Assembly: GCA_948146395.1 (NCBI GenBank)
Contig: OX411557.1
Location: 33,086,077-33,150,076, forward strand
Length of the DNA stretch: 64,000 nucleotides
Source: Fragum whitleyi
Taxonomy: Eukaryota > Mollusca > Bivalvia > Cardiida > Cardiidae
Direction: 5' to 3'
Shown here: positions 2,585 to 58,976 of the stretch, in pieces
Layout of the letters: each line of letters starts with the position of its first letter
Numbering within the stretch: position 1 is the stretch's first letter
Translations under genes and position numbers: made by a program
Notes under the pieces: generated by a model
Databases searched by the model: none
The model's input: only the letters and a program-made list of their open reading frames with translations
What the model was told of the DNA's origin: nothing

Positions 2585-2652
2585 TAAAAGTTGAGAACTT
2601 CACAAGAATAGAAATCATTCCTCCAATCACTCCTCATAATAATTCCCTCCAT
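2585..2652 (-). CDS. Gene 1 exon 12: SEA 3, middle
   Basis: This 68 bp exon lies between TTCTTTACAG and TTTTA|GTAAGT, phase 0 in and phase 2 out. It encodes MEGIIMRSDWRNDFYSCEVL, matching the YSC/HSC core of the other SEA middles. I see no C-terminal SEA 3 exon in 1-2584, so it should lie to the left of the window. Confidence 0.75.
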
Positions 2653-5600: not shown

Positions 5601-8600
5601 GTTTTGCGCTGAGCCTTCAATTTGAGCTTTGACCTTGATCTTTAAGCAATAGAAAAAATATTCAAATAGCACACCTACTCATGATGGAGAATAATTGCAC
5701 CAAGTTAATTCAAATCCATTCATAAGGGTTTGTGATAATCTTAATGACCTAACAATCATCCTGTAAAAGTTCCAGGAGAATCCAATAACATATGTGGCCC
5801 TTAACACATAAAAAAAATTGCACTCAGAAAAATTCCTAAGTGAAATTCCATAACACCCTGTTTCTTTTGTTTTTAGCAGGATCATCCCCAATTTCATTAG
5901 TAGCAATTTTTTTTGACCTAACAATCATTCTGTGAACGTTTCAAGGGAGTCCAATAATATTTGTAACATTTATAGGGTAAACAAGAAAAGTTAACTAATG
6001 GATGTATAGGCAGACAGATTGAGAGATGGAGGGTTGGACAGACAGACAGGAATCATACCATCCCATATGTTTCTGACCTTGGGTCAGTAGAGATTTAAAT
6101 ATTTTTGAAGAATCATTTCTATACATTTCATTAAGATAAGTCAAAGGTCAATGCATTTGGTAAAAGAGACAAACTTGCCAAAAGCAAAGATGTTTCTTTG
6201 CTAAGAAAGCTTAGAAACCAAAATTAAATCTAAAAAACTTTAGCTTACCTGAACTGTTCTACTGCACAGCTGTGAAACCTTGGACCAAGGGGACTGATGA
6301 GGAATATTCTTTCAAGCTGAAAATTGAGAAAAAGATCCTGACATGACTAATCTCATGAACCATTGTGGCTTTACAGATGACATTTTATCTAGAATAAATG
6401 GCACTATAATTAGATAATCCATTAATGAATATAGGCATCCTTGTGCTTATCAACACATTTGTTGTCAAGCAAACCTTCTCTGTGCTGTGAAAAACTTTTC
6501 ACAATGCACATACAACTGTTATTATTGCAAGAAAAGCACAGATAATATTTCAGAAATCCAATTTCATTTACCTACATTTGAAGCCCAAGAAGTTTCTTTG
6601 GCATCTGGCCAGTGGTTCAGGAGATGCTGTTCAAAGATTTCAGACACAAAATAAGCCACACCCATATTCATGGACCAATCAAAATTTTGCAAACAACTTT
6701 AAGAGGGGCACCCAAGAAACATTCTTGTAATGTTTCATTGAAATTGGCCAAGTGGCTCAGGAGGGGATGTCATTTTAAAGACTTTGGGCTCAAAATAAGC
6801 CCCACCCTGCCACCTCTATCTTTAAGGGCCAATCAAAATTGTGCAAATGATTTTTGAAGAGGGTCACCCAAGGAACATTTTGTTAAGTTTCATTGAAATC
6901 AACCTGGAAGTTCAGGAGGAGATGTCATTCAAAGATTTCAAAGTGAAAAAATGCCATACCCAAATTTATGTGCCAATCAGTATTTTGTGAACAATTTCTA
7001 AGGGTCACACTAGGAACATTTTGTCAAGATTGCATTGAAATCTTCCCGGTGGTTCAGGAGGCAATAAAGTTTTTAAGATTGTTGATGACAGAATCAGAGT
7101 GATCATAAAAGCTCTCTTTGAGCATGTTAGGCTCAGGTGAGCTAAAAAACAATAAAACAAATTAAATAATTTAGACCAAATGTCTTATTCTTTGCAAGTA
7201 TAGGAAAGATATTCATTAGTGGTGGACTTTAAGCTGCAGATATGTCAACAATGTCAATTTGATTGTAGTTTTATGTCCAATATATTTTTCAAGTTTATCA
7301 ACTTTGGTAACTGAATTAGCCTTCTTTGAAGGAGGTTAGAAGTGGTGGCCATAGACTGGTTTTGAATGAAGGATCTCACATATAAGGGATTTTATTGTAC
7401 TCACATCTCTACAGAATGGTCTGGCCAGTTCATTAAACTTCTCACTATCTCTGACAGTCAGGTCTGGTGAGTATGTCATGTTGTACACCCAGATTGACAG
7501 ATTTGCCAAAACCCCAACTGAAATAAAGAGTCACTCTACTTGCAGAAATTGACTAAGCAGCCTTATGAAGAAAAAAAGACAATTGCATACACATTGTAAA
7601 AGAAGGGTAAAGAGAGAGAGGAGAGTCCTGAGGGGAGGGAAACAATGGAGAAATAGAAAATATACGAGTACAGAGTCCAAACTACAGAATTCTTATTCAG
7701 AGAGTTCAAGGGGAGATAATTCCAGAACAAGGAGGATTTGAGACTTCAAATAGTGTCTTGTAATACTTCAATTTGATATGATTAGTTTAGAATTTAAGTG
7801 TTTTAAGTGTGTCTCTACATTTCTTTTTTTCCTTTAAGATTAATAGGTCACCTGCTGAAATATTTCTGCAAAGTAATATTCATGATTATGTTTTAGAAAA
7901 TTGCCCTCCATTTATTAAATACATATTTTTCATCAAATGACAAAAATTTTGTGCAGTCAATGAGTAATGATTATCAAAGGAACTTTCTGTTGAAATTCAG
8001 TTGATATCCATCACATAAGGTTCTGAGAAAATGATTTTTAAAGTTTCAACTACATGTATAAAATATATAGAAAAATTACCTCTGCTCATAAGCAGGGATT
8101 ATTTTGGGATGGGCTGTACTGATTTTGTGGAAAAAATTTAATTCTAGACTAAATCTGATTACAGTTTTGGATGGGCCCCATATATAATCTATTCAAATCT
8201 GATGCTTATTTTGATCTAGGGTAGGTATTAAGGATTCTTGGGCCCACCACTTTTTCCTAATGGCCCATCAATTTTGCAGATGGCCCATCAAAATCTTAGA
8301 TTTTACATCTAAATGATTGGGATATGGGCCATTGGCCCATTTTAATGGCCCATCATGAAACTGATCCAAAAATATCCCTGCATAAGATACTTATTTTTCA
8401 TCTAATCACAATATTTTTCTGCAGTCCAATTTAGGGTCACCCAAGGTTCACCTAAGTCAAATTTCCTTGATATCCATCACTAAGGTTATGAGAAAATGAT
8501 TTTAAAAATTGCCACCATATAACAATAACTTCGTCCATAGTAAATAGAAAATAACCAAAGTATAATATGTATATCTCTATGGATACTGAGTCATTCTGTG

Positions 8601-11600: not shown

Positions 11601-14600
11601 GAAAGTTAACGAAAGATAATGAAAGACAGGCCAACTATGTTTCCCAATAGAAATGCTTTTTTGACTCGTCGAATGTATACTAAGTCACTGGAATTACAAG
11701 TAAAAAACGTATACGAGATATTCAGTCTGATCACAATTGTTTTTTCTTGGTTTGTGAGTATTTGAAATCCTACATTAAATCCCTTGAATTATTTTTCGAT
11801 ATGACACATCATTTGAAAAATAGTGGACATGAATGTCAGCATGTAGGTCGATCTAAATTGTTTTGGTGTGTTATTGAAAAATACGACACCAAAAATGATC
11901 ATTTTTATGCGAGAATCTGAATATGGGTCTGTCGACATCGGCAATCGGCAATCACAAATAATTCAGTTCTGTCATCTACGCAACCCCATGAAATTCCGAC
12001 TGTCTACAGAGGCAACATTTTTCTTACTATGTCGTCTTTGAGGACCCGCTGTTTGTTTATTTTTTTGAATTATGGCTTCAAATTTGGAAGAAATATCGGC
12101 GGATAATTAGACTTCAGCTGTGTACAAGTTAAAATAGATTTTATTGAGAGATAGGCGAATTGTGAGAGCATAAAGTCTAATTTCGTAACTTTTCATGGGA
12201 AACCTCCGAAATAATCAATGATTGTGGCCTTATTTGGGAGGGATATGAGTAGAGATTTATTATATAGAAGCGCTGAACACTTACACGATCATTTATCTGC
12301 TTTAGAATACCAAAGCTTCAATCGTTTATTTACACAAATAAATTTATTTGACCTACCGTCTCCTCGGCATAATGTTCCGATGCTGTCATCGTTGACTCTC
12401 ACCCGTCATCGCTGCAACCGGTTGTACGTTGTGCTACCTCTGGGTGGGGTTACAGTGGGTAGAGGTTTTAAGTTACTCCTGACATCAATAATAAAGTCAT
12501 CCACCATAATAACCTCAAAATCCTGACCAGTGATTAACCTTGAACCTACCTCTAGGTGGGGTCACAGTGGGTAGAGGTTTTAAGTTACTCCTGACATCAA
12601 TAATAAAGTCATCCACCATAATAACCTCAAAGTCCTGACCAGTAATCCTGGGTGCATTAGCATCTATCACTTGTAGGATCTTTTCATTGATTTCTCTATC
12701 ATTTCCAAAATCTCCTCTAAAAGCCACATTGAAAAATGCTCTTGTATTGCCTGGCCTGAAATGTTGAAATATGTTAAAAAAGACAAGATGTGTTTGTGAA
12801 ACACGAATGCCACCTTAACGGCATTTTTTTTCAAAGTTCGACCTTGACAGATGACCTTGACCTTGTCATATGACCTTGACTTTGGTACCAGCGGATGCAG
12901 ATCATTGAGATCTATCATCATGCCAAATATTAGCTTTGTATCTTGAATAGGAAGATATTAGCAAGGTTAAGTTTTCGGGTTAAGAGTTCGGACGGACAGA
13001 CAGACGGACAGACAGACGGACATGAGTAAAACAATATGCCCCCGATCTCTCGATACGGGGGCATAAAAAAAGTTAAGTAACATGATTTTGATGATTCAAT
13101 CATAGTTAAGATAGCATTAAACTTATATGTATACATGTATGCTACTTTTGATTGTTGATAGTATTGGGGGGGGGGAACAAATATCTGTCATTCACTGAGT
13201 ATGAGAATCAAATAAAATTTTATCCTTGGTTTGGGTCTTGTTTGTTCAAATTATCTCATTTATAGGAAAATGAAGCCAGCACATAAGCCAGACTGCAGTG
13301 TAGGCCATATCAGCAAAATGTTCAAATTGAACATCATGTTTGACAAGTTTAAGAGATCCAGATGGAATTACCTTATGTGTATCAAGTTTTTTAAATGATT
13401 CAGGTGAGAGTACAGTCAATCTTGCTCGAGCAACCACATCTATTAAGTGACCATTTTTATTAAACCTTGTCATGCTGAATAAATTTTGGCTAAGAATTTG
13501 CATCAATATCAAAGGGCAAAAAACACTGATAGTACCAACTGTAGGTCAGTTTTTATTTGTAAAACTAAATCTATTGACAATTCTGGTTTGAAAGTGAGAA
13601 ACAGGTGGTGTAGACTAACATCAGACTGCATATATGTGCAGGCTGATGTTTGTCTATGGCTCCTGCCAAAGCAGAAAATTCCGGGTTCAGCATAACAAGA
13701 CCATTTTGAAAATTCCCTTTTTTAAAAAAATATCTTAATAAGTAGTCATTGTTGGTCTGAAAATAATTGAAAATGAATCCTATGTTGTTAAAACTCACCA
13801 GAAACGTTTCATGAGAGGATTCTATTGAGTTATGAAACATAAGTTATTAAAATTTTTGCAATATTATAAATAATCAATATTAAACTCTGTTTCTTATTTG
13901 TAAACAAATTGTTTATTAAGTAGCCATTTTCTTTAACAACCACCTTTTGGTGGTCCTGTTTGTGGTTGCTTTAAACAAATTTTACTGTACAAGTAGAAGT
14001 ATAACTCACTGAACTGGTTGCAGTATGCCTGCACATGAACATGGTGCCTCTGTAGCATCAGGTCTACAATATAACACACAAAATACTCTTGAGTTGCTGG
14101 GAGCATCTTGTCTTATTCACCAATTCAAAAACAACAGAATTATTTACACTGTTTAAAATTCAGATTTATAATCCACAGCAAAGATTTTTAAGTTCTCAGA
14201 GGGTATGGAATATTGTTAAGAGAAATTTCCTGGAATTAATTTGGGTAATGATCAGTGGTTCTGAAATAAGCTGCCCGAGTTGTCCAAATAAGTTGTCAAT
14301 TAAGCTGCACGGACAAGCGGAATTTCATAGCTACGTTGTCCGTTGACAAGTGAAAAAATCTCTAGAGTAAAAAAAAAATTCTTAAAAATTTAGCCAAATT
14401 TTCTGATGTTCCATGTAATTCAATGTCAACAATAAGTCTTTTGATTTCAATATTTTGCAGATTCTAAAAATTCAACAGACAAGTAAGTTTTAGCCACGGA
14501 CAAGCTAGTTTGTAATTGTAACTTGTCCGTGGCCAAGCTGACTTTCAAAATATTTCAAAACCACTGATGATAATAGAAAATATGAAAGAAAAATATGCAA

Positions 14601-17600: not shown

Positions 17601-20600
17601 TGGAAATATAATTCATTATATTAATCTTTCTACAGAACTCCCTAAGTAGACCAATACGATTTCCCCACCATAGGACCCTATAGCCCTTTGTAAATGAACT
17701 AAATGCACTAAATGCCATTTCGCAACTAATTTATAACTATTTATGCCAATTTTCCTAAAGTCCAATGCTAAAATTTCTTGGGATGGACGGGGAAGGGGGT
17801 TTATAAACAAAATCACTAAGTTTATTTAATAGGGCATAAAGAGCCTTATTTTCATAGTAGGCCTACGGGAGACCGGGACTAAACCGGCAACTTTTTACTC
17901 ACTTTTGATTTTCAAAATAACTTTTAAGGATATTTAACAGAATTTTACTAGATTTTTCCATTAGGGCCTACCAATGATATGCCTGGTCTACGGAACCTTA
18001 GATAAATGATTTATACATAACCTATTTTTTGTTACTTTTTTCACGTTGTTACCACATTATTATTATATCTTATAACCACTATTTGTCTTGTTTTCATCGA
18101 TGTTTCTAACGGAAATGCAAGTTTCCAAAAATAACTGCATTATATCATTGTTCTAAAAATAACTATGCGATATCATAAAAATATCTTATGGGATGTTATT
18201 ACACGGATATTTGTATATTTATAAGATAGGCCTAAATTTATTATCCATTGTTATTTTACATTCTTTATTCATTCTCATCAATAATACCATGAGCTAATTT
18301 GCATTGGACACCACTAGCCACACCTTAAAAGAAGCGCACACTTTTCGACATATTTCCCTCCTAGTAGCTTTCCACCCAAGGAAGAATGTGGACATTCTTT
18401 CAGTTGATTGATGTTAGAGATAGGCCCACATATCTACATCAAAATAAATATGCTGAAGATATACGCAAAAAAAGTTTCCATAAGCGCACGTTTCGTTCAA
18501 ATACAATAAAAGATCCGTTCTAACCTATCTTTTCGAGAGCGGCAGTGTATTAGATTTGCACTTTTTACAACTCCTGTTGACAGAAATTGACTCGAACATA
18601 CTTCTAAAATGTTGGGAACATATCTAAATAGATTTTGGAAAGATTTTAGAAAAAAATTGAATAGCATGATTTTGGTAGGGATAATTGGCGAAGATTTGCG
18701 TAGACTAGGGAATCACGTGCTTCTGCATATAAACATAGGCGTATCTAGGCCTTTGAAATTTATACGCAGCTAAACTACTAAAGAGTAAATAGGAAAAAGG
18801 GGATTTGTGGTCTGTAACAAAAGATGGATGGCCCCCCGTCCGCTCTCTTTTTATGATCTGAGCGTTGGTGAATAATCAAAACATCGTAACTACAGCTTGA
18901 ATAAGCTGTAGTTTCGATGTTATGATCATTCATCATCGATATATTTCAACAGGGGATTATTTCTTTTACGCACTTGTGTAAATTGCGTAATGGGAGCTAC
19001 GCCCTTGATAAACAAAACAATTCTTACCGTAGTTCATTCAGTCTACAACTGACATAACGGTCGGCATATTGACTGTTTCTGAAGTATTTGTCAATCTAAA
19101 ATAAAAAAAAAACTCGGAAATTAATCTAGGATGACAAATGATTAGTTGTTTGGATGTTTGTGATAAATTTATCATTTTTTGAGTCCGATGAAGTTCTATA
19201 TTGGGAAAACTATAACCCAAAATGCAGCATTATGTCCAGTGCTTTTGAACACGGTTTTAAAAACAATTTAGGCGTACTGCAATATTAATTATTCATTTGG
19301 TATAAATAACAAGCTACTGCAAATATTACTGCAGTAGGTACACACATTTCCTTGTAAATGGTGTATCGACAACTCTATTTTATGGATTTATTCAATATTT
19401 ATTTGAAAAGAACAGTTCATGTAGTCAAATAATGTTGATAATACATGTATATTTCTTGTATGATGCTATACGGTTGGACAATGAAAATGTAAAAAGACAA
19501 GGGCAAAATTATACCTCTTTACAGAAAGGCTCCGCAACTTCTTGAAAACTTCCAGAGTCGCCTGCTTGCATGGCCGAACTATAGGGTACGTTCAACAGTG
19601 GAACCGAACCATTTGTACGCGTTGAGTCTGAAACACCGACAAGAATGTTTCACCTTCTCTTCTGCTTTAATTGGTAATTAATTCGGCGATTTATACAGTC
19701 TAGCTTTTAAACTAATTCAGAGGTTAAAATAATTGGTATTTTGAAATTGTCCTTTACAGAAATTTTGAAAATTCCATGTATTTTGTGACTTTTTCAAAGT
19801 AGGGTTGTTGTTTTCTTTTGTTTGCTACGATCTTTCTGTCTGTCCCTTTTACAAAGGTCTTTCTCCTAAATTCCGTATATTGAATCGTCTTTGCATTCTT
19901 GTAAATGTGTTGAATAGAGAGAAACATACAGTGACCGTTTAGAAGTTGGTTTCAGTTTAATTTGTACATCTAACATTAAATATATAATTTCATTTTTTTA
20001 TTCCATTAATTTTGACTTTTTACTTCAGTAAAATCTGAGTCAACTCTTTCAACTGAGGTATGAATTAAATCTTTGTCAATCATTTGACTCTTACTAGAGG
20101 ATTAATTCTTACACTTTTCTAAAGACAATTGAATTTCTTTTATGGTTGTAGCAAAATATTTTCCACGTTTTGTTATCAAAAGTTGAGGAAAAGGAAAGAC
20201 ATTGTTCTTCAATTAAACTTAGGCCACCGTTGTACCATACGTTATTAATGGAGTCTTTCGAAATTTTGCTTATGTATTTTTTTATAATAAACTATGTTTT
20301 TTTTACCATTTTAATGATTTTCGTCGGAACACGACGTCTTTTAAAGTGTTAATATCATCTTTAGAGAAGCTATAGATTATATAGGTTACGTAGCAGCTTA
20401 TACGTTGAAGCTACTGATCCCATACTGCTAGCACGTCTTAAACATACTCACAGAACATTGTACATTATACCTTATAAAAGACCCAACCTCACCCCAGTGA
20501 GCGAAAACAATTGTAAACAAACATATAGAAATATCAATTATATGAACATTTAAATGTACCCCCTTTTTTAAACTGAAAGCGCAAAAAGTGTATGACAGTT

Positions 20601-23449
20601 ATTTTGAGTGCAATTACAAAAAAAAAGATATATTCCTTCTTTTGCATTTTTTGTCTGATGAGATTTCGCGAATTAACAACTCTAGAGTAGAGATACAAGT
20701 TGTCATGTACTTACAATATGATCTTGGGTCCGGATCTGAAAATGATAGGAGAGATATAGTAAATTAAATCAATGTAAAAACAGAATAAAACCAGCACGAT
20801 TTTAGAAATTTTAAAAGTTCTTTTTTTAAGCTTCTGAAGGCTATGAATAAGTGTACATTTATTTCTTATATATGTACCTAATCGATTCTTTAAACCCGTG
20901 CTAACAATGTCATCACAAATTCACTACTTAAGAATATTTCGGAAGAATGATTTAACCGGGGTGGCAATTCAAGTTAATCCGCCATAAAACCTAATACGTT
21001 TTCAATGTCATAAAACTCTTAAACGGCCTCCATCGAAATACGAGACAACCACGTGTTATTGTGTTGATCTAAAAATATAAAATTGACCTAATATTTACTC
21101 ATTTTCATCAGGTAATACACCATGACCCCTATTCCTATGGCAACCAATAACGCCCCAAGTAACAGTATCCATAGTAAACAACACGAAGAGCGCCTTCTAT
21201 AACTTCCGGTATGGGACGTTCTGAGAGAGTAACTGTCCACTTCTCGGTGCTCGGCGGTGTAGCCTTGATTCACGTGACCTCCATGGTATCGTAGCGGCAT
21301 CTGAAAAATGGTTTTACGGATAAGCATAATCATTCTTTATGCAATATATCTGACTTAATTATAAATAACAACACAATTAAGAATATATTGTAGGCGAACG
21401 AGAAGAAAGCCACACGTGTGATATTGTTTGAAATGTGTTTTGCATGTAACGTTACGCAGTAGGACTACATGTACATGTAATATTAGGGAAAATTTCGATA
21501 TTTCTTACTTTTTCATGTTTATTGGAATGAAAAAGAGAAACATTGAAGTTTTTGCCTCAAAAAGCAATTCATGAAAATGATTACGTAGGCGTAAAACACT
21601 TATTATGTAGAATGATATAATTCAATGACAGTTTCATGGGTTTCAATGTAACTTTATCGATATCAGCGTTTTCTGTGCCATAGTCTACCGACTATAATTC
21701 GTACGAGCTCTCGAAAATTGTTTTGATGGCATTATTTGTTAATGCTTGGCAACCTTGCTAGTAATAGTCTTTGGGGTATGACGAAACCTACCAGGGTGGA
21801 TGCCCAGTCTGAAACTTCGAATTAAGGTCACAATAAGGTCAAAGGTCAAAAAGGTGCGATTTCATATATAAATCGTCTTTGTGATATTTTTAATTGCTAT
21901 ACATGCTGTGTTATTAATTTATTGTGCTAAATTTTCTGAGAACTGCATCAGAGACATAACTTTATAGAAAGGTTAACTTATTATGAATATCTTGACTATC
22001 ATATGGCAAAGAAGAATGTACTTTCCGAAGCTAAAACGGCTTATGGCTGAATATTTTTGCCGTTTTAACGTTATTTGCCATGATGCCTCAGTCATATGCG
22101 TTTCTTAATTTGAGGTGGTGTTCTCTACGTTGTGTAAGGGTCTTCGAATACTGGGATTGCATTTTGCTTTTATAAACTTAACTTAATATCAGGTAGGTAG
22201 GCTTATGAAATCGGCTGAACTTGCTCACTACATAATATTGCATTTAAGCTTTAGAATTTATATCATTACAGGGTTTGAATTCTTTTAATGTTAACAAGAG
22301 TTGTGTAAAAACGTTCTTTTGATTTAAACGGGTCCTTCGTCAATTATTCCGCCAGTCGAAGCATTTTTGCATATAGGGGATACATGTATTTGGACCGACA
22401 TTTTTTTTTAATTTATTTATTGATTTAAACAGCTTTTCTTCTACATGGAAGGACTTCTTCCTGACATAAATGTCATAAACACGCTTATTTGTTCATCATA
22501 ATGATCAAACCATCATTAGTTATTTTACATTCCCTATCATGACACTGTAAACTACCGCCCATTAGCCCCGGGTTAGATAGTAAACGTTGATACAACCCAT
22601 ATCCCATTATGTGTATATTAAGTAAGAATGAAATAAAAACCTCAGCCGAGAAAGATTCCAATCTACTATTTTGTACAACGCCTATTTCACAATCATCGCC
22701 GAAGGGTACCATTTCATTTGCATATCCATAGTACATGTAATTAAATTTCGAATGGATATTTCTAGCGTAGGTTTAAATAGTGCAATATGTTTAATTGCAA
22801 TATGATCAAGTACAATTATATAACGATAATAAAAAGTAATTATTGAAATCGTCCGGAACTTCCTATATGCATTTTTTTTTTTTTTTTTTTTTTTTAGACT
22901 GTCTCCCACATCAAAGTTGGTTATCAATCCAGTCCATTCCCCCGATAGAAGTTTTGTGTCCCAAGTCTTTTTTTTTATTTCTTTTAATCTATAATGATAA
23001 ATCCCATAAAAGTTTCATCTATCTCAATCTTGTGATCAAATCATTGTCCAAATACATGTATAGTCGACTGAAAATAATTCCATACCTTTATGAAAAAAAT
23101 CTAGAATATTGAACAAGTTTTTCTTTTCATGCATAACTTTCCTGCGAAAGCCGTAAGTGAAAATTTAGCTTTTGTTGTCCACAAAATAAAGTATGAATTG
23201 ATTTTCACAAACAGCAAAAGGTTATGCTATTTCTTTAATTGCAAAAATGAGCGAAAAGCAAAATGTTTGGTATTTTGCACGTGATTACTAAGCAACGTAA
23301 TGGCGCCATTTATTTGTTATGTCCCGCTTAGATAAGGTTTAAATATGGTAGAATGAACGAAAGCAGGTTTGACTATACTATTTTCATCTGTTATTTTCGC
23401 CATGTAAGCGAGCAAAATTACACACACAAATAAGAAAAAAAAACACACA

Positions 23450-23486
<37 letters not shown>

Positions 23487-26322
23487 AGATGAAAAAATTT
23501 TACAAGAAGCAATATACATGTAAAACGCACAATGAAAAGAGTGACATTAAAGTACAATGACATCAAATAATGTAATATAGAACCCTTTTTCATACGTTCA
23601 TTAATTTCATGACCCTTAAATCATGTATGTGATGATGAAGTTTAATAAAAGAAACTGCTTAAAATGGATAATTTCACTGGTCAAGCGGTGAGATTATTAA
23701 GTGATATTCTGCCGTTATCTGCCGATAATCGGTTGCAAAGAACTAAAAAAAGCGTTTACTATCGTATTTGTAGTTCTTATAGTAGGTTTTCACTGATCGG
23801 CTACTCGTCACAGAATTCTAGGCCTTCGTACTTCGCACTTTTCGTATGCGTTTTTCGCTGCGTTTCATGAAATATAATTATTTACGGCGATATTTATGGT
23901 ATATTTTGACGAAAATGTGTTGTAAATTTTGTTTGTGCATATCCTAGCTCGGTTTATAGTTAATTCTAAGATTGTATCAAAAGACGGTATGTCATCGAGT
24001 AAAGTATCTTTGTACTCGGCTTATCAAAATTGTTTATTACTAGCAAAACTGGTCGAGTTCTCCCTCTTAAACACCGAAAAACAGTCCTAATCAGTATCAA
24101 AGATTTTAAAATAAATCGTTCTGAGAGAGTAACTGTCCACTTCTCGGTGCTCGGCGGTGTAGCCTTGATTCACGTGACCTCCATGGTATCGTAGCGGCAT
24201 CTGAAAATGGTTTTACGGATAAGCATAATCATTCTTTATGCAATATATCTGACTTAATTATAAATAACAACACAATTAAGAATATATTGTAGGCGAACGA
24301 GAAGAAAGCCACACGTGCGATATTGTTTGAAATGTGCTTTGCATGTAACGTTACGCAGTAGGACTACATGTACATGTAATATTAGGGAAAATTTCGATAT
24401 TTCTTACTTTTTCATGTTTATTGGAATGAAAAAGAGAAACATTGAAGTTTTTGCCTCAAAAAGCAATTCATGAAAATGATTACGTAGGCGTAAAACACTT
24501 ATTATGTAGAATGATATAATTCAATGACAGTTTCATGGGTTTCAATGTAACTTTATCGATATCAGCGTTTTCTGTGCCATAGTCTACCGACTATAATTCG
24601 TACGAGCTCTCGAAAATTGTTTTGATGGCATTATTTGTTAATGCTTGGCAACCTTGCTAGTAATAGTCTTTGGGGTATGACGAAACCTACCAGGGTGGAT
24701 GCCCAGTCTGAAACTTCGAATTAAGGTCACAATAAGGTCAAAGGTCAAAAAGGTGCGATTTCATATATAAATCGTCTTTGTGATATTTTTAATTGCTATA
24801 CATGCTGTGTTATTAATTTATTGTGCTAAATTTTCTGAGAACTGCATCAGAGACATAACTTTATAGAAAGGTTAACTTATTATGAATATCTTGACTATTA
24901 TATGGCAAAGAAGAATGTACTTTCCGAAGCTAAAACGGCTTATGGCTGAATATTTTTGCCGTTTTAACGTTATTTGCCATGATGCCTCAGTCATATGCGT
25001 TTCTTAATTTGAGGTGGTGTTCTCTACGTTGTGTAAGGGTCTTCGAATACTGGGATTGCATTTTGCTTTTATAAACTTAACTTAATATCAGGTAGGTAGG
25101 CTTATGAAATCGGCTGAACTTGCTCACTACATAATATTGCATTTAAGCTTTAGAATTTATATCATTACAGGGTTTGAATTCTTTTAATGTTAACAAGAGT
25201 TGTGTAAAAACGTTCTTTTGATTTAAACGGGTCCTTCGTCAATTATTCCGCCAGTCGAAGCATTTTTGCATATAGGGGATACATGTATTTGGACCGACAT
25301 TTTTTTTTTAATTTATTTATTGATTTAAACAGCTTTTCTTCTACATGGAAGGACTTCTTCCTGACATAAATGTCATAAACACGCTTATTTGTTCATCATA
25401 ATGATCAAACCATCATTAGTTATTTTACATTCCCTATCATGACACTGTAAACTACCGCCCATTAGCCCCGGGTTAGATAGTAAACGTTGATACAACCCAT
25501 ATCCCATTATGTGTATATTAAGTAAGAATGAAATAAAAACCTCAGCCGAGAAAGATTCCAATCTACTATTTCACAATCATCGCCGAAGGGTACCATTTCA
25601 TTTGCATATCCATAGTACATGTAATTAAATTTCGAATGGATATTTCTAGCGTAGGTTTAAATAGTGCAATATGTTTAATTGCAATATGATCAAGTACAAT
25701 TATATAACGATAATAAAAAGTAATTATTGAAATCGTCCGGAACTTCCTATATGCATTTTTTTTTTTTTTTTTTTTTAGACTGTCTCCCACATCAAAGTTG
25801 GTTATCAATCCAGTCCATTCCCCCGATAGAAGTTTTGTGTCCCAAGTCTTTTTTTTTATTTCTTTTAATCTATAATGATAAATCCCATAAAAGTTTCATC
25901 TATCTCAATCTTGTGATCAAATCATTGTCCAAATACATGTATAGTCGACTGAAAATAATTCCATACCTTTATGAAAAAAATCTAGAATATTGAACAAGTT
26001 TTTCTTTTCATGCATAACTTTCCTGCGAAAGCCGTAAGTGAAAATTTAGCTTTTGTTGTCCACAAAATAAAGTATGAATTGATTTTCACAAACAGCAAAA
26101 GGTTATGCTATTTCTTTAATTGCAAAAATGAGCGAAAAGCAAAATGTTTGGTATTTTGCACGTGATTACTAAGCAACGTAATGGCGCCATTTATTTGTTA
26201 GGTCCCGCTTAGATAAGGTTTAAATATGGTAGAATGAACGAAAGCAGGTTTGACTATACTATTTTCATCTGTTATTTTCGCCATGTAAGCGAGCAAAATT
26301 ACACACACAAATAAGAAAAAAA

Positions 26323-26356
<34 letters not shown>

Positions 26357-29213
26357 AAAACAGATGAAAAAATTTTACAAGAAGCAATATACATGTAAAA
26401 CGCACAATGAAAAGAGTGACATTAAAGTACAATGACATCAAATAATGAAATATAGAACCCTTTTTCATACGTTCATTAATTTCATGACCCTTAAATCATG
26501 TATGTGATGATGAAGTTTAATAAAAGAAACTGCTTAAAATGGATAATTTCACTGGTCAAGCGGTGAGATTATTAAGTGATATTCTGCCGTTATCTGCCGA
26601 TAATCGGTTGCAAAGAACTAAAAAAAGCGTTTACTATCGTATTTGTAGTTCTTATAGTAGGTTTTCACTGATCGGCTACTCGTCACAGAATTCTAGGCCT
26701 TCGTACTTCGCACTTTTCGTATGCGTTTTTCGCTGCGTTTCATGAAATATAATTATTTACGGCGATATTTATGGTATATTTTGACGAAAATGTGTTGTAA
26801 ATTTTGTTTGTGCATATCCTAGCTCGGTTTATAGTTAATTCTAAGATTGTATCAAAAGACGGTATGTCATCGAGTAAAGTATCTTTGTACTCGGCTTATC
26901 AAAATTGTTTATTACTAGCAAAACTGGTCGAGTTCTCCCTCTTAAACACCGAAAAACAGTCCTAATCAGTATCAAAGATTTTAAAATAAATCGTTCTGAG
27001 AGAGTAACTGTCCACTTCTCGGTGCTCGGCGGTGTAGCCTTGATTCACGTGACCTCCATGGTATCGTAGCGGCATCTGAAAATGGTTTTACGGATAAGCA
27101 TAATCATTCTTTATGCAATATATCTGACTTAATTATAAATAACAACACAATTAAGAATATATTGTAGGCGAACGAGAAGAAAGCCACACGTGTGATATTG
27201 TTTGAAATGTGTTTTGCATGTAACGTTACGCAGTAGGACTACATGTACATGTAATATTAGGGAAAATTTCGATATTTCTTACTTTTTCATGTTTATTGGA
27301 ATGAAAAAGAGAAACATTGAAGTTTTTGCCTCAAAAAGCAATTCATGAAAATGATTACGTAGGCGTAAAACACTTATTATGTAGAATGATATAATTCAAT
27401 GACAGTTTCATGGGTTTCAATGTAACTTTATCGATATCAGCGTTTTCTGTGCCATAGTCTACCGACTATAATTCGTACGAGCTCTCGAAAATTGTTTTGA
27501 TGGCATTATTTGTTAATGCTTGGCAACCTTGCTAGTAATAGTCTTTGGGGTATGACGAAACCTACCAGGGTGGATGCCCAGTCTGAAACTTCGAATTAAG
27601 GTCACAATAAGGTCAAAGGTCAAAAAGGTGCGATTTCATATATAAATCGTCTTTGTGATATTTTTAATTGCTATACATGCTGTGTTATTAATTTATTGTG
27701 CTAAATTTTCTGAGAACTGCATCAGAGACATAACTTTATAGAAAGGTTAACTTATTATGAATATCTTGACTATCATATGGCAAAGAAGAATGTACTTTCC
27801 GAAGCTAAAACGGCTTATGGCTGAATATTTTTGCCGTTTTAACGTTATTTGCCATGATGCCTCAGTCATATGCGTTTCTTAATTTGAGGTGGTGTTCTCT
27901 ACGTTGTGTAAGGGTCTTCGAATACTGGGATTGCATTTTGCTTTTATAAACTTAACTTAATATCAGGTAGGTAGGCTTATGAAATCGGCTGAACTTGCTC
28001 ACTACATAATATTGCATTTAAGCTTTAGAATTTATATCATTACAGGGTTTGAATTCTTTTAATGTTAACAAGAGTTGTGTAAAAACGTTCTTTTGATTTA
28101 AACGGGTCCTTCGTCAATTATTCCGCCAGTCGAAGCATTTTTGCATATAGGGAATACATGTATTTGGACCGACATTTTTTTTTTAATTTATTTATTGATT
28201 TAAACAGCTTTTCTTCTACATGGAAGGACTTCTTCCTGACATAAATGTCATAAACACGCTTATTTGTTCATCATAATGATCAAACCATCATTAGTTATTT
28301 TACATTCCCTATCATGACACTGTAAACTACCGCCCATTAGCCCCGGGTTAGATAGTAAACGTTGATACAACCCATATCCCATTATGTGTATATTAAGTAA
28401 GAATGAAATAAAAACCTCAGCCGAGAAAGATTCCAATCTACTATTTTGTACAACGCCTATTTCACAATCATCGCCGAAGGGTACCATTTCATTTGCATAT
28501 CCATAGTACATGTAATTAAATTTCGAATGGATATTTCTAGCGTAGGTTTAAATAGTGCAATATGTTTAATTGCAATATGATCAAGTACAATTATATAACG
28601 ATAATAAAAAGTAATTATTGAAATCGTCCGGAACTTCCTATATGCATCTTTTTTTTTTTTTTTTTTTTTTAGACTGTCTCCCACATCAAAGTTGGTTATC
28701 ATTCCAGTCCATTCCCCCGATAGAAGTTTTGTGTCCCAAGTCTTTTTTTTATTTCTTTTAATCTATAATGATAAATCCCATAAAAGTTTCATCTATCTCA
28801 ATCTTGTGATCAAATCATTGTCCAAATACATGTATAGTCGACTGAAAATAATTCCATACCTTTATGAAAAAAATCTAGAATATTGAACAAGTTTTTCTTT
28901 TCATGCATAACTTTCCTGCGAAAGCCGTAAGTGAAAATTTAGCTTTTGTTGTCCACGAAATAAAGTATGAATTGATTTTCACAAACAGCAAAAGGTTATG
29001 CTATTTCTTTAATTGCAAAAATGAGCGAAAAGCAAAATGTTTGGTATTTTGCACGTGATTACTAAGCAACGTAATGGCGCCATTTATTTGTTAGGTCCCG
29101 CTTAGATAAGGTTTAAATATGGTAGAATGAACGAAAGCAGGTTTGACTATACTATTTTCATCTGTTATTTTCGCCATGTAAGCGAGCAAAATTACACACA
29201 AATAAGAAAAAAA

Positions 29214-29247
<34 letters not shown>

Positions 29248-31025
29248 AACAGATGAAAAAATTTTACAAGAAGCAATATACATGTAAAACGCACAATGAA
29301 AAGAGTGACATTAAAGTACAATGACATCAAATAATGAAATATAGAACCCTTTTTCATACGTTCATTAATTTCATGACCCTTAAATCATGTATGTGATGAT
29401 GAAGTTTAATAAAAGAAACTGCTTAAAATGGATAATTTCACTGGTCAAGCGGTGAGATTATTAAGTGATATTCTGCCGTTATCTGCCGATAATCGGTTGC
29501 AAAGAACTAAAAAAAGCGTTTACTATCGTATTTGTAGTTCTTATAGTAGGTTTTCACTGATCGGCTACTCGTCACAGAATTCTAGGCCTTCGTACTTCGC
29601 ACTTTTCGTATGCGTTTTTCGCTGCGTTTCATGAAATATAATTATTTACGGCGATATTTACGGTATATTTTGACGAAAATGTGTTGTAAATTTTGTTTGT
29701 GCATATCCTAGCTCGGTTTATAGTTAATTCTAAGATTGTATCAAAAGACGGTATGTCATCGAGTAAAGTATCTTTGTACTCGGCTTATCAAAATTGTTTA
29801 TTACTAGCAAAACTGGCCGAGTTCTCCCTCTTAAACACCGAAAAACAGTCCTAATCAGTATCAAAGATTTTAAAATCAATTGAGCGAAGTATACACTTTT
29901 TGTCACAATATTTTTGTCGTATTGTAGTACAATTTTCTACCGCCACTGGTTAATTGATTCTTTCAACCAAATTCAACGTCATAACTTTGTAGCGTACCTC
30001 CACATGCAAAAATTATTACCACGATTGTAAAGAACAAAAAGTCAAATTTGAATTGCAAATACGTCTTCAGAATTAAAAATAAATATTATAGAATTGGAAT
30101 AAGAAGATAATATTTGTTACATCTTGCATTTATTTTCTAGGTTAACGATGTTATTGTACCATGCTTTAAATCTCATGATGTTGATCTTTCTAATTTGATA
30201 ATAAAACTGGATCATACGGCACTTTATTACAAACAGTTTTAATAAGACTTGTCGAAATAAAATAAAGCATGTAAAATAAGAAATGAACTTAATTTCTGTA
30301 ACGAAAATGCGAAATTGTAAACGTACACAAGGCTTATTCTCAAGGCTGTCAATAGAAAGGTAGCTGACAAAAGCCGGTTTAGATTCGAGCTACTCCGTAC
30401 CGGACCATACTTACACGTTTTTAACCAATCAAATCGCACTGCATACGAAGAAGCACAATCATGCAGGACCATGCGCCAACTTATTTCTGACCCTGTGCGG
30501 GTAACTGTTGTCCCGCAATATCAGAGTATCTCTCAGAAAGCGGGATACCAGCTCTAGACTGGTCCACATATCGACTATCAGAATAGCCTAAAATAGGCTA
30601 TTCTGATATTCGACAGTGAGACCAGTCTACACCCGACCCGAAAGCAGGCGAGAAATAAGTTGGCCCAATGTCACTGTATTGAACCGTACTAAAACGCATT
30701 ACACCGATATACCCCGTATACATGTCCACGGAAAAACTACGGGCTTTTGTACTAACACCTTTGTAAATCAGGAGAGACTGAGTATTGGATTCGATATTTC
30801 GATATTTCTATAGTGATACCTGAACGATACCTGCACGCGAGATGGACTTAATTCACTAAAGTAATTTGATTTTAATTGGAGATTTTAAAAGTTTGTTATA
30901 ATTGATATGATATGAAGTTGACTCACCCCACTAAACCCGTTGTAGTACCAACCATCGTCATCTCTGATGATATAATCCTCCGAGAAATTGTTCACCCAGT
31001 CGGGTGTGCGGCCTGGGTGACTCAT
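2585..31025 (-). CDS. Gene 1: multi-SEA-domain type II membrane protein (12 exons seen, 3' end outside window)
   Basis: Twelve exons on the minus strand join in frame with GT/AG borders: 30927-31025, 21099-21300, 20715-20735, 19515-19627, 19028-19095, 14010-14063, 12550-12755, 7405-7517, 6249-6316, 5063-5304, 4023-4138 and 2585-2652. They give about 456 codons with no internal stop, and the gene continues off the left edge. Residues 1-74 form a hydrophilic, probably cytoplasmic tail ending in an Arg/Ser stretch. Residues 75-97 are one hydrophobic segment, and the rest should be extracellular. SEA domain 1 covers about 118-240, SEA 2 about 258-385, and SEA 3 begins at about 398. Each SEA has the pattern F..(L/V)...FC(K/R)(D/E) then a (Y/H).SC core. 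SEA domains occur in mucin-like and type II membrane proteins and stabilise or cleave the juxtamembrane ectodomain. No protease or other C-terminal domain is visible here. Family placement beyond SEA is not possible. The splice model is inference from sequence alone. Confidence 0.75.
4023..4138 (-). CDS. Gene 1 exon 11: SEA 3, first half
   Basis: The exon is 116 bp between TATTTGCAG and GAT|GTATGT, phase 1 in and phase 0 out. It encodes MPYMEMFLKYTGLEF, an Asn/Ser turn and ENRFCKD. This fits the SEA start pattern, with one codon more than exons 4 and 8. An earlier reading frame over the same bases is a shadow. Confidence 0.75.
5063..5304 (-). CDS. Gene 1 exon 10: SEA 2, C-terminal half and linker
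   Basis: The exon is 242 bp with acceptor TTTAATAG and donor AGAA|GTAAGA, phase 2 in and phase 1 out. It encodes FRPDIAVVNVWFKDDN, a helix, LLITDRDIVVVPIPV and a Pro/Thr-rich linker. The Gly-Ser cleavage pair expected after FRP is replaced by Asp-Ile, so this SEA domain is probably not self-cleaving. Confidence 0.85.
5549..5615. repeat. Palindromic hairpin, MITE family A
   Basis: The two arms, around GGTTCAGCACAAAACAGTTG and its complement near GCGCTGAGCC, form a stem of about 30 bp with a short AT loop. A related hairpin lies at 14908-14975. Confidence 0.6.
6249..6316 (-). CDS. Gene 1 exon 9: SEA 2, middle
   Basis: This 68 bp exon lies between ATTTTCAG and TTCAG|GTAAGC, phase 0 in and phase 2 out. 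It encodes LERIFLISPLGPRFHSCAVE. Its size and phase equal those of the other two 68 bp SEA exons. Confidence 0.85.
6595..7147 (+). repeat. Degenerate tandem array of about 150 bp units
   Basis: Three to four units carry the phrases TTCAGGAG(G)AGATG, TTCAAAGATTTC, CCAATCAAAATTTTG and GTTTCATTGAAAT. The array ends in GGCTCAGGTGAGCTAAAAAA. It is the same family as 60655-61360. It lies in a gene 1 intron. ORFs over it are not genes. Confidence 0.65.
7405..7517 (-). CDS. Gene 1 exon 8: SEA 2, first half
   Basis: The exon is 113 bp between TATTTCAG and GAT|GTGAGT, phase 1 in and phase 0 out. It encodes VLANLSIWVYNMTYSPDLTV then a Ser-rich turn and LARPFCRD, the classic start of a SEA domain. It equals exon 4 in size and phase. 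Confidence 0.85.
8101..8380. repeat. Short degenerate repeat of GGCCCATCAA
   Basis: The motif (T)GGCCCATCA recurs several times within about 170 bp, with GATGGGC variants nearby. It is intronic, with no coding signal. Confidence 0.35.
8870..9155 (-). repeat. Tandem copies of exon 7 tail plus donor, left block (112 bp unit)
   Basis: Two and a half units repeat the 3' part of gene 1 exon 7 from ACTGGTCAGGA through CCCAGAG, then GTAGGTTCAAGGTTAATC, the first 18 bases of its intron. The spacing is 112 bp. Each unit keeps a usable donor but has no acceptor. The block was split from its right-hand partner (12434-12549) by the foldback element. Confidence 0.8.
9156..12433. mobile_element. 3.3 kb foldback element with ~1.2 kb inverted arms
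   Basis: Arms 9156-10360 and 11229-12433 are near-identical inverted copies, for example TCGTGTAAGTGTTCAGCGC on one side and its complement on the other. Ends read CATAGACCGTACAACC and CACAACGTACAACC. The element is flanked by CTA(C) on both sides, consistent with a 3 to 4 bp target duplication. It inserted into the 112 bp exon-tail array. No transposase is visible, and matching 83-102 codon ORFs in the two arms are mirror images of one sequence. CACA ends with a 3 bp duplication recall CACTA/EnSpm-type elements, but this assignment is weak. Confidence 0.75.
11048..11228 (+). mobile_element. SINE body (headless copy) inside the foldback spacer
   Basis: About 180 bp beginning TCTCACCAATGCGTTGAT and ending CTCCATTCAATCAAT match the body of the SINE at 63579-63832, sharing GTGAGATAGCAGCTGGAGG and CCAGGAATCCATTGTTAG. 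The tRNA-like head is missing or unrecognisable here. Its tail abuts the start of the right arm. Confidence 0.65.
12434..12549 (-). repeat. Tandem copy of exon 7 tail plus donor, right block
   Basis: This is one 112 bp unit directly downstream (in gene orientation) of exon 7's own donor. It again holds exon tail plus CCCAGAG|GTAGCAC at the element junction. It is the right flank of the foldback insertion. Reading through exon 7 into this copy meets a stop soon after GRFKVNHWSGF. Confidence 0.75.
12550..12755 (-). CDS. Gene 1 exon 7: SEA 1, C-terminal half
   Basis: The exon is 206 bp with acceptor ACATTTCAG and donor AGAG|GTAGGT, phase 2 in and phase 1 out. It encodes FFNVAFRGDFGNDREINEK, a helix, then ITGQDFEVIMVDDFIIDV and a Pro/Thr linker, the last helix and strand of a SEA domain. 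The usual autoproteolysis Gly-Ser is replaced by PGN. The 3' part of this exon, together with its donor, is repeated four times downstream (about 8870-9155 and 12434-12549). Confidence 0.85.
12783..13072. repeat. Dispersed repeat ending in a GACGGACAGACAG tract
   Basis: GACCTTGACAGATGACCTTG and an ACGGACAGACAGACGGACAG run precede CCCCCGATCTCTCGATACGGGGGCAT, a small palindrome. It lies about 28 bp upstream of the acceptor of gene 1 exon 7. Confidence 0.5.
14010..14063 (-). CDS. Gene 1 exon 6: SEA 1 insert
   Basis: This 54 bp exon lies between TATTGTAG and GTTCA|GTGAGT, phase 2 in and phase 2 out. It encodes PDATEAPCSCAGILQPV. In SEA 2 the matching part is continuous with the C-terminal half, so this is an extra exon and intron specific to SEA 1. 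The join with exons 5 and 7 is in frame. Confidence 0.7.
14269..14545. repeat. Dispersed repeat with inverted CTTGTCCGTGG motifs
   Basis: CACGGACAAGC and CTTGTCCGTGGC occur in opposite orientation around an AT-rich centre. A related pair of ACTTGTCC and GGACAAGT motifs lies at 3293-3615. Both sit in gene 1 introns and have no coding signal. Confidence 0.4.
14908..14975. repeat. Palindromic hairpin, MITE family A, second copy
   Basis: The arms GGCTCAGCATGAAACAGTTT and AACTGTTTCATGCTGAGCC enclose CTACCTATATATCTATGGG. Arms and loop resemble 5549-5615. Confidence 0.6.
15299..16158 (+). repeat. Tandem array of ~145 bp units bracketed by CTCACCTGA motifs
   Basis: The head AACAAGAGGACCCAAGATGG...CACTCACCTGAA precedes about five units with CATCCTTGTGACCTG, AACATTCTGACC, TTTCATGAAGATT and TGTGGCCTCTAGA. 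The end is AAGCTCACCTTGAGCACGAT...GTGAGCTAAAAA. It has no coding potential and lies in gene 1's large intron. Confidence 0.7.
16745..17061 (-). pseudogene. Decayed non-LTR retrotransposon RT fragment
   Basis: Across three minus-strand frames one reads FNPDKCEVLRIHRKRRP, then GVNISKK, then YKTYVRPQVEYCATVWFPW and VEMVQRSAARYVL. This is the typical region just after the catalytic YADD of CR1/Jockey-type reverse transcriptases. Frameshifts break it, so it is a dead fragment in a gene 1 intron. The clade was not resolved. Confidence 0.75.
17177..17268. repeat. Long imperfect hairpin (stem about 30 bp)
   Basis: GCACAGGGACATGTCCCGCT and AGCGGAACATTTCCCTGTGC with T-run/A-run inner stems face each other around an AT loop. 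It is probably a MITE. Confidence 0.55.
18870..18930. repeat. Hairpin with 19 bp near-perfect stem
   Basis: AACATCGTAACTACAGCTT and AAGCTGTAGTTTCGATGTT pair with one mismatch around GAAT. Weaker relatives are at 55225-55275 and 57565-57625. A small MITE family is the simplest reading. Confidence 0.5.
19028..19095 (-). CDS. Gene 1 exon 5: SEA 1, middle
   Basis: This 68 bp exon lies between a T-rich acceptor (ATTTTAG) and donor CTACG|GTAAGA, phase 0 in and phase 2 out. It encodes IDKYFRNSQYADRYVSC and a short tail. It has the same length, phase and Y/H-x-SC core as the exons at 6249-6316 and 2585-2652, which supports all three. Confidence 0.8.
19515..19627 (-). CDS. Gene 1 exon 4: SEA 1, first half
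   Basis: The exon is 113 bp between GTTTCAG and GAG|GTATAA, phase 1 in and phase 0 out. It encodes a Thr/Ser/Asn linker, then NVPYSSAMQAGDSGSFQEVA and EPFCKE, the N-terminal strand and helix of a SEA domain. It matches exon 8 (7405-7517) in length and motif layout. Confidence 0.8.
20715..20735 (-). CDS. Gene 1 exon 3: 21 bp microexon
   Basis: The acceptor ATTTTCAG and donor ATATT|GTAAGT flank only 21 bases. Read in phase 1 they give NPDPRSY and pass phase 1 to the next exon, so the frame closes exactly on both sides. The microexon lengthens the stalk just outside the membrane helix. It is short, but both splice sites are strong and the phase match is exact. Confidence 0.65.
21099..21300 (-). 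CDS. Gene 1 exon 2: transmembrane exon
   Basis: The acceptor TTTTTCAG lies immediately before ATGCCGCTACG at 21300. The exon has 67 codons plus one base and ends at a donor GTAAAT (phase 1). It encodes a polar stretch (MPLRYHGGH...), a basic RRRSSCC stop-transfer patch and a hydrophobic helix LLWILLLGALLVAIGIGVMV. The positive charges before the helix place the N-terminus inside, a type II topology. The first 84 bp of this exon (21217-21300) lie inside the triplicated unit and recur at 24117-24200 and 26992-27075. Confidence 0.85.
23265..23310. promoter_or_regulatory. Possible promoter-like motif cluster (E-box, X-box, palindrome) in each triplicated unit
   Basis: GCACGTGATTACTAAGCAAC contains a CACGTG E-box and ATTACT-A-AGCAAC, which fits the RFX X-box consensus RYYNYY-N-RRNRAC. 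ATGGCGCCAT, a GGCGCC palindrome with YY1-like cores, follows. The cluster is repeated near 26158 and 29052. Function is inferred from motifs only. Confidence 0.3.
23664..23870 (+). other. 68-codon ORF conserved in all three units, status unclear
   Basis: An ATG opens MDNFTGQAVRLLSDILPLSA and runs 68 codons to CVFRCVS. It recurs identically at 26539-26745 and 29428-29634, but this follows from the recent triplication and is not proof of selection. A donor-like CG|GTGAGA lies eight codons in, so it could also be a first exon. No family is recognised and no downstream exon was found. Confidence 0.2.
24117..24200 (-). pseudogene. Decoy copy of gene 1 exon 2 start (unit 2)
   Basis: These are the first 84 bp of exon 2 with acceptor ATTTTCAG|ATG intact. 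There is no membrane segment and no donor at the break. If spliced to exon 1 the frame continues after SYSLRT as IYFKIFDTD and stops at 24087-24089, giving a short soluble product without TM or SEA domains. Confidence 0.7.
24117..26991. repeat. Triplicated 2.9 kb segment, unit 2
   Basis: Nearly identical to unit 1 across its whole length. A 14 bp piece present in units 1 and 3 (TTGTACAACGCC region) is missing near 25569, between short direct repeats. Confidence 0.9.
26992..27075 (-). pseudogene. Decoy copy of gene 1 exon 2 start (unit 3)
   Basis: Same as the unit 2 decoy, with intact acceptor and start-like ATG. It is the first of the three acceptors reached downstream of exon 1, about 3.9 kb away. 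The frame stops soon after the repeat junction. Confidence 0.7.
26992..29876. repeat. Triplicated 2.9 kb segment, unit 3
   Basis: Nearly identical to units 1 and 2 until 29876, where the sequence leaves the repeat (TTTTAAAATCAATTG instead of TTTTAAAATAAATCG). The orientation is the same as units 1 and 2, so this is a head-to-tail array. Confidence 0.9.
30475..30664. mobile_element. Foldback MITE of ~190 bp
   Basis: GCCAACTTATTTCTG at the left and GAGAAATAAGTTGGC at the right are inverted. Inside, 30555-30629 form a second long palindrome (AGACTGGT...ATAGCC/GGCTAT...ACCAGTCT). It has no coding potential. It lies just downstream of gene 1 exon 1, in intron 1. Confidence 0.6.
30927..31025 (-). 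CDS. Gene 1 exon 1: start codon and cytoplasmic N-terminus
   Basis: On the minus strand an ATG at 31025-31023 opens a 33-codon stretch beginning MSHPGRTPDW and ending NGFSG, followed directly by a strong donor, GGG|GTGAGT. It ends in phase 0, which fits the next exon at 21300. The peptide is acidic and rich in Tyr, Trp and Asp and has no signal peptide, as expected of a type II protein. I chose this start because the next exon begins exactly at a splice acceptor, so the Met there is probably internal. A 5'UTR exon further upstream is possible but not resolved. If exon 1 were wrong, translation would start at 21300. Confidence 0.6.
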
Positions 31026-31892: not shown

Positions 31893-33444
31893 CTACTCAA
31901 AGTTAGCTAAGCACCAAACCTTTTCACTGTCCTACAGGAGCTGATTAAAAAAGATATTCGTGTTCGTGTTGGAAATTATACAAAAATGTATTGACAAGAT
32001 ATCTTATGTATACATTACCAAGTTTGATACGCAGTTTTCTCGCGAGACTCGTGCAAAAAGAGGAACCCTGGTTTCTTACCTGTCCTTTCTCAATTTCTAA
32101 ATGTGCAGGTTTCGTGTAGATGCTTAGTTTCTGTTTTTCAGTTCTTTATTGACTTTTAAGTCGCTACTCATAGATAATCCAAATGTCAGACGACATTTAT
32201 CTGTTGAACAATTGTGGCGTGCTATAGGTATGGTGGACCATGGGGCTTCCCACTGTGATGTTAGCATGATACAAGGGGTACACCATACTGTTGTAACCAG
32301 AGCTTCGGCACGATACAAACAGTATGGTACACCTGTAAGGAGACATGGTGGAGGTAGGAGTAGAGCTACCTCCGTCGCAGAAGACCGTTTTTTGGTAATT
32401 CAAGCCCGAAGGAACAGGTTTGCTACGGCAACGCTACTACGTTCCGACCTTCAAAACTCCTCGGAAGTGCGAGTTTCGACCAAAACCATACGAACATGGC
32501 TGTATGAGCATAACCTGAGACAAGAAGGCAATGAATCCGTATTCCGCTGTCCCGAGCGTCGGTTAACATGGGCATTGGACTACGTTGGCTGGCACATAAG
32601 ACGCTGGCGCCCCGTGCTATTCACGGATGAGTCCAGGTATTGCCTGGACTACACTGATAGGCGGGCTAGGGTGTGGAGAAGGCGAGGGGAAAGGTGTCAT
32701 GCAGCAAACATTGCTAAGCACGATCGTTATGGGGGTGGGTCAATCATGTTTTGGGGTGGCATCAGCTTGGATGGGCAGACTGATCTTGTTATTTTAGAAA
32801 GAGGTACTCTGACAGCTTGTAGGTACATTGATGAGATCCTAAATACCTACGTAAGATTTTACGCTGGTGCTATTAGGGATGGATTCAATTTAATGGATGA
32901 TAATGCCCGTCCACACACGGCCCGTATAGTCCACGAGTATCGCCAAGAAGAGGACATTCCACGTCTGGTCTGGCCTGCTCGCTCACCGGACTTAAATCCG
33001 AAAGAGCATATATGGAATGAGCTACAGGTCTGAGTTTCGGCTCGCCAGGTCCAGCCAAGCTCACACCAGGAGCTCGGCCAGGTCCTTATAGAAAAATTGT
33101 CTGTTATTCCCCAAAGAGTAATCCAGAACATAATTAGGAGTATGCAGGGGCGCTGCCAGACTGTTATTGACAGTACCGGCTCTCTTACTCGTTATTTAAC
33201 GAAATGCAATTGAAAGAACACCCTTTTTTGGTCAAATTCGATTTTTTTTCAATTTTAAAGAAAACAGACCAATTTCTCCCTGTTTGGTCAACATTTAAAG
33301 TCTTCTTTTTATTATAAAGCTTTATTTTCTTCTTTGAAATTTGATAAACTGATAAGCATTTTCCAACGTTCTTATAATCAAATTTCATTTTTTCCTGAAA
33401 TTGTAGTATGTAAAGAGTTTTGGTGCTTAGCAAACTTTGAGTAG
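31893..33444 (+). mobile_element. Tc1/mariner-like transposon, 1552 bp
   Basis: The terminal inverted repeats start CTACTCAAAGTT and run about 27 bp (CTACTCAAAGTTNGCTAAGC then ACCAAA) with one mismatch. Both ends are flanked by TA, the target duplication expected for the superfamily. The interior carries one transposase-derived ORF on the plus strand. It lies upstream of gene 1 exon 1. The near-identical ends suggest a fairly recent insertion. Confidence 0.9.
32149..33213 (+). pseudogene. Tc1/mariner (IS630 superfamily) transposase, start lost and one in-frame stop
   Basis: The frame shows an N-terminal helix-turn-helix region, then the DDE catalytic parts: FTDESR (first Asp), MDDNARPH (second Asp) and SPDLNPKEHIWNEL (third acidic). 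A TGA at 33031-33033 interrupts just after the third motif. The frame then continues without further stops to 33213 with VSARQVQPSS...TGSLTRY, the usual C-terminus. No ATG precedes the conserved HLSVEQLWRAIG start; the open frame begins near 32128 and the first ATG is about 32227. Apart from these two defects it is complete, about 350 codons. It would cut and paste DNA at TA sites if intact. Confidence 0.85.
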
Positions 33445-58725: not shown

Positions 58726-58976
58726 TTATTCTACTAAATGTATCATTCGGAACACTCGGTTGTTATCCTTCGCAATATGAAGCCACGTACTATCCAATTG
58801 TTACATGTGCAAGAAGAGACCACTACACGTTCTCGGCATAGCTTCTTATATTTAATTCAATGCCAATATTTGAATAATGGTAGACGCTACATTGCTCGGT
58901 GGTAACCACTCTGTACATTGAGCATTTTGTTCTTTGCCCTCGCGAGTTAAGGTGGAAGAGGACAATAGCGTCTTCT

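Follow-up and report, generated by a model that had tools for sequence, protein, structure and literature searches.

We identified a tandem triplication within a gene encoding SEA domains, in a 64,000-nucleotide stretch of DNA (hereafter the window; C15:33086077-33150076 of an assembly of 1,224,646,155 bases in 38 contigs). The best explanation of the locus, to which we assign a probability of about three in four, is a young intragenic event in exon 2 and intron 1 that left two extra copies of the exon 2 acceptor (hereafter decoys), which act at most as leaky splicing traps lowering the full-length output. The triplication is probably near-neutral.

Structure and divergence of the triplicated units

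Self-BLAST and a repeat search revealed three direct copies of approximately 2.9 kb within 21217-29876, at a spacing of 2.88-2.90 kb (Table 1). The copies are arranged head to tail, share a novel junction and lie inside one gene, which makes the locus an intragenic tandem triplication, as far as can be judged from an assembly. Together with the alignment of the three units, these searches bore out almost to the base the recent head-to-tail triplication proposed in an earlier note on this DNA. Because the 2.9-kb copies are approximately 99% identical, a chance origin is not an issue. When homopolymers and A/AC tracts are left out of the alignment, the pairwise substitutions between the units number 5, 7 and 8, and each of the ten substitutions in total is private to one unit (two in U1, three in U2 and five in U3). 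This count excludes position 29877, which is outside the unit, and changes within the tracts, where three columns have a substitution. The units also differ in tract lengths, as the earlier note had described along with the few base differences, and in a 16-bp deletion private to U2.

Ten substitutions over three branches give a branch length of approximately 0.12%. Because there are three copies and no outgroup, and every site is a singleton, these figures are branch lengths only, and an attempt to order the duplications by their substitutions was rejected on the same grounds. At assumed rates between 1e-9 and 4e-9 substitutions per site per year, one branch would correspond to approximately 0.3 to 1.2 million years.

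Table 1. Features of the triplication and its host gene, in window positions
Feature	Position	Strand	Remarks and basis
U1 (unit 1)	21217..24116	.	Ends in real exon 2; 4-bp filler 24113-24116 (alignment)
U2 (unit 2)	24117..26991	.	Private 16-bp deletion; 4-bp filler 26988-26991 (alignment)
U3 (unit 3)	26992..29876	.	Transcribed first; right breakpoint 29876/29877 (three-unit alignment)
Decoy in U3	26992..27075	-	Exon 2 acceptor with 84 bp; frame enters unit 2, stop 26962
Decoy in U2	24117..24200	-	Exon 2 acceptor with 84 bp; frame enters unit 1, stop 24087
Candidate exon 1	30927..31025	-	33 codons (MSHPG...NGFSG); donor GGG/GTGAGT; open frame, GC, donor score
Intron 1, present form	21301..30926	-	9.6 kb, mostly triplication; exon 1 donor to exon 2 acceptor
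Real exon 2	21099..21300	-	202 bp; membrane helix CLLWILLLGALLVAIGIGV and neighbours; hydropathy, paralogue
Candidate micro-exon 3	20715..20735	-	21 bp; splice sites and phase only; frame also kept if skipped
Exon 4, SEA domain 1 start	19515..19627	-	SEA in joined protein; genome match L028
Exon 5, SEA domain 1	19028..19095	-	SEA in joined protein; genome match
Exon 6, SEA domain 1 end	12550..12755	-	SEA in joined protein; paralogue L038
Exon 7, SEA domain 2	7405..7517	-	SEA in joined protein; paralogue L034
Exon 8, SEA domain 2	6249..6316	-	SEA in joined protein
Exon 9, SEA domain 2 end	5063..5304	-	SEA in joined protein; paralogue L026
Exon 10, SEA domain 3 start	4023..4138	-	SEA in joined protein
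Exon 11, SEA domain 3	2585..2652	-	SEA in joined protein

Breakpoints and junctions

The left breakpoint (21216/21217) is located inside the exon encoding the membrane helix, where the left flank and the unit start read GGTATGGGA/CGTTCTGAG. At the right breakpoint, the unit end and the right flank read TTTTAAAAT/CAATTGAG. Both inner junctions are alike, TTTTAAAAT-AAAT-CGTTCTGAG, with a 4-bp filler AAAT, and this junction string occurs twice in the window. Because the inner junctions are identical down to the filler, they suggest a single breakage and end-joining event whose product was later copied. The break in exon 2 would have been joined to the break in intron 1 (29876/29877) through the 4-bp filler, producing a head-to-tail duplication, and this single junction would then have been copied by a later exchange or by replication slippage to give three units. 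Since the left break lies inside exon 2, the two upstream units received the exon 2 acceptor and the first 84 bp without the exon 2 donor.

Recombination between repeats at the breakpoints was also considered and rejected. No direct or inverted repeat of at least 18 nt was found within 20900-21500 around the left breakpoint, nor was any of that length found at the right breakpoint in a search of 29600-30900, where two inverted pairs sit at 30467-30672, approximately 0.6-0.8 kb away from it. Every unit contains two dispersed repeats, neither of which reaches a breakpoint. The first (21680-22325 in U1) is present in at least 37 other places in the genome, and the second is located at about 23476-23669 in U1.

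Host gene and its paralogue

The joined exons 1-11 on the minus strand form an open frame, in which Pfam detected SEA in three stretches (4.9e-29). A raw three-frame Pfam scan of 11.4-21.3 kb gave 0 families, and SEA appears only after the exons are joined. The helix in exon 2 has a hydropathy of 2.76 over 19 residues and is preceded by RRR. Ten of the 11 exons are covered by genome matches or splice phase, the exception being the 21-bp exon 3. We consider the gene credible as one that encodes a type II membrane protein with SEA domains, a topology predicted from an apparently uncleaved N-terminal helix that is followed by a SEA domain. Type II membrane SEA proteins such as matriptase and transmembrane agrin have an N-terminal tail, one helix and a SEA domain outside the membrane. 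The predicted protein resembles them in its N-terminal tail, single helix and outer SEA domain, but the present gene has several SEA domains, EGF exons follow further along the same strand, and the domain order differs. In a protein search with the 439-aa model, none of the 3453 candidates reached E <= 0.01, in a collection whose animal share is uncertain. The EGF exons are located left of the window on the same strand (L010, L009 and L011), and further SEA-like exons were recognised by eye in L010, with a Pfam SEA raw-frame score of 19.1 against a cut-off of 26.4. These EGF and SEA-like exons appear to be part of the same gene.

A paralogue of the SEA gene is located on the same chromosome at C15:25.93 Mb, 7.2 Mb away (L026, L034, L038 and L039). 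Its membrane helix and its first two SEA domains are encoded by exons that match those of the present gene, including counterparts of exons 6, 7 and 9. All 19 genome matches were scored; 15 of them fall in the present gene (two are the decoys) and four in the paralogue. The membrane exon of the paralogue has the same acceptor position (TTTTTCAG/ATGCC), and its helix resembles that of exon 2 (33% identity, E 6.9e-4).

Exon 1 is a candidate coding exon on sequence features only: an open frame with an in-frame stop upstream, a GC content of 0.505 compared with 0.329 in the intron, and a donor at the 99.6th percentile among all GTs on the minus strand of the window. It matches only itself in the genome search, and no counterpart was found in the 10 kb upstream of the membrane exon of the paralogue, where the best chance hit had an E value of 0.92. 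Because exon 2 opens with an ATG directly after the acceptor in both the gene and the paralogue, translation could start in exon 2; the predicted product of a decoy would then be 37 aa long instead of the length given below.

Decoy exon fragments

In U1, the 84 bp that were copied correspond to 21217-21300 and have the sequence MPLRYHGGHVNQGYTAEHREVDSYSLRT; the helix is encoded in the uncopied part of the exon. The alignment therefore agrees with the earlier claim that the left breakpoint falls in the transmembrane exon and that units 2 and 3 carry its acceptor and 84 bp, with no membrane segment. Exon 1 ends at 30927, and three AG/ATG acceptors open at 27075, 24200 and 21300, the same junction coordinates as had been proposed. 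Joining exon 1 to a decoy would keep the frame and give a predicted product of 70 aa that ends in IYFKIFDTD-stop, nine codons past the copied 84 bp, which matches the stop within about ten codons that had been foreseen. The most hydrophobic 19 residues of this predicted product score -0.37, compared with 2.76 in the full protein, in keeping with the loss of the helix. An AATAAA is found 162 nt past the decoy acceptor and 49 nt past the stop.

Splice sites were scored with generic matrices that were not trained on this genome. On this scale, the decoy acceptors score 0.13 and the acceptor of the real exon 2 scores 0.03, whereas the real exon 2 donor scores -2.85. The decoy acceptors differ from the real one by a single T in the tract that precedes CAG. 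Of the GTs past the decoys, those at 126, 160 and 362 nt have scores of -1.7, -2.7 and 0.5, respectively. As a means of telling the decoys from the real site, the matrices were discarded, as they gave no separation. Because the sites of exon 2 score no better than the decoy acceptors and some of the downstream GTs, the expectation that the decoys are mostly skipped lacks backing from the site scores. Generic site strength neither favours nor excludes decoy use, and it weighs against confident claims of skipping. In most of the pre-mRNA, exon 1 would nevertheless be expected to be joined to the complete exon 2 (acceptor at 21300), and in some it may be joined to a decoy, yielding a short cytosolic peptide or a message that is lost to decay.

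Alternative readings of the locus

The three units might be an assembly artefact, as the earlier note allowed, with one or two units in the animal and the rest arising from collapsed or concatenated haplotypes. The small divergence between the units would fit this, and one unit may be an allelic copy placed in series. However, each unit has private substitutions, the middle unit has its own 16-bp deletion, and neither inner junction is a plain overlap; joined overlapping contig ends would not make the same filler at both. These unit-specific variants and the identical fillers weaken the alternative. A stray copy elsewhere is also missing from the scored candidates. With the full unit as query against the whole genome, three full-length matches were obtained, all at this locus, and no further full copy was found among the 40 candidates scored out of 1269 in the 1.22-Gb genome, where the remaining matches span unit positions 464-1109 or less. 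The repeat-poor rest of the unit gave three full-length matches and otherwise pieces of the second dispersed repeat (40 of 1148 candidates scored). A search of the unit against a plasmid collection gave no match, which is uninformative for animal DNA. We regard an artefact as improbable.

If the triplication is real, its effect on splicing may be read in several ways. The earlier note suggested, as one possibility, that the decoys switch between membrane-bound and truncated forms. In the version considered here, a membrane-anchored protein would alternate with a short N-terminal product ending at an intronic poly(A) site. The predicted in-frame 70-aa product without the helix and the AATAAA at its distance beyond the decoy acceptor and the stop would fit such a switch. 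However, a decoy is an exact copy of the 5' part of the exon and is therefore in frame by construction, and recent copying accounts for both the kept frame and the intact acceptors. A stop within ten codons follows 46% of the reading positions in intron 1, and an AATAAA lies within 170 nt of 41% of the intron 1 AGs. The decoys are also too young for their conservation to carry meaning, because the chance of zero substitutions in both is 0.72 without selection (0.12% per branch over 2 x 144 sites, comprising the acceptor and the 84 bp). Given these control rates, the features of the decoys that look designed are what a recent copy gives. The structural part of the earlier interpretation therefore stands, whereas its functional part is unsupported: frame, acceptor, stop and AATAAA are all expected from recent copying, a regulated switch is, in our judgement, very improbable, and a splice consequence of the decoys is possible. 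The decoys might instead be leaky traps that reduce the full-length output in proportion to the copy number, with no regulated switch. The decoy acceptors equal or slightly exceed the real one with the generic matrix, they are transcribed before it, and the real exon 2 donor is weak; against this, the decoys have no exon 2 donor, and we consider such proportionality unlikely, though less so than a switch. An extension of this idea, a splicing rheostat in which the number of units sets the amount of a large surface protein that is made, is improbable. If it were true, every additional unit would set a further in-frame acceptor trap before the membrane exon, and the dose would vary among individuals according to whether they carry one, two or three units. 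The reading that we prefer remains a recent, probably near-neutral triplication with decoys that are at most leaky.

Other features in the window

In intron 6, the 3' part of exon 6 and its donor are repeated as a tandem array of 112-bp copies (12434-12643 and 8870-9156). This array has four extra starts besides exon 6 (12528, 9135, 9023 and 8911, the copy at 8911 being shortened), and these fragments mirror the exon 2 case in the same gene, with donors instead of acceptors. The array is split by a fold-back element (9163-12428), the inverted arms of which (9163-10360 and 11228-12428) are approximately 1.2 kb long and 94.9% identical. Just upstream of exon 1, a 301-aa open frame on the plus strand (32128-33033) encodes a Tc1-type transposase (DDE_3, 1.3e-11). 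Exons of a copper type II ascorbate-dependent monooxygenase (Cu2_monooxygen and Cu2_monoox_C) are located at 38598-41870 on the minus strand. A 327-aa open frame on the plus strand (50965-51948), with no Pfam match above the cut-off, is presumably the end of a retroelement polyprotein. Arrays of a 21-bp unit, rich in the palindrome-like TTTCGTTTTAACGAA, are located at 58471-58727 and 61629-61970.

Comparison with known systems

Poison exons bear stops, are spliced in on both sides and are usually regulated. A decoy joined to exon 1 would likewise bring an early in-frame stop, the IYFKIFDTD-stop being located directly after the copied 84 bp. In contrast to a poison exon, which is spliced on both sides, the decoys have no evident donor, only weak GTs downstream as scored by the generic matrix, on which the real exon 2 donor scores no better.

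Tandem duplication of exons has been described as giving rise to alternative splicing (Kondrashov and Koonin 2001, as cited in PMC2592719). In such a duplication, head-to-tail copies within the gene supply new splice sites next to the original exon, as at the present locus, but the copy comprises the whole exon, acceptor and donor included, and can take the place of the original. The decoys hold the acceptor and 84 of the 202 bp of exon 2, and we therefore rejected this class for the locus; because only this part was copied, no decoy would be able to substitute for exon 2. In the dog, an 11-kb tandem duplication in intron 61 of USH2A is linked to the roan coat, and new regulation or altered splicing is put forward in that study as what it might cause (PMC7987146). 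Both cases are young, kilobase-scale tandem duplications in an intron of a large gene. They differ in that the passages available from the dog study describe no exon fragment, and in that population and phenotype data accompany it, whereas the present locus is known from an assembly. Bivalve genomes show structural variation and hemizygous regions (PMC7653742), which may be the context for young structural variants such as this one. That study deals with the presence and absence of genes, and its main text does not use the term 'tandem duplication'. A search of one literature library with chosen terms returned no description of the present locus.

If the decoys are used, the locus would provide a natural graded test of whether the first-met acceptor, lacking a donor, captures splicing at a copy number of one, two or three. 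Unused decoys would make it a clean example of identical acceptors that splicing passes over in the absence of the remaining exon sequence. In both cases, the locus is a copy-number marker for use in populations.
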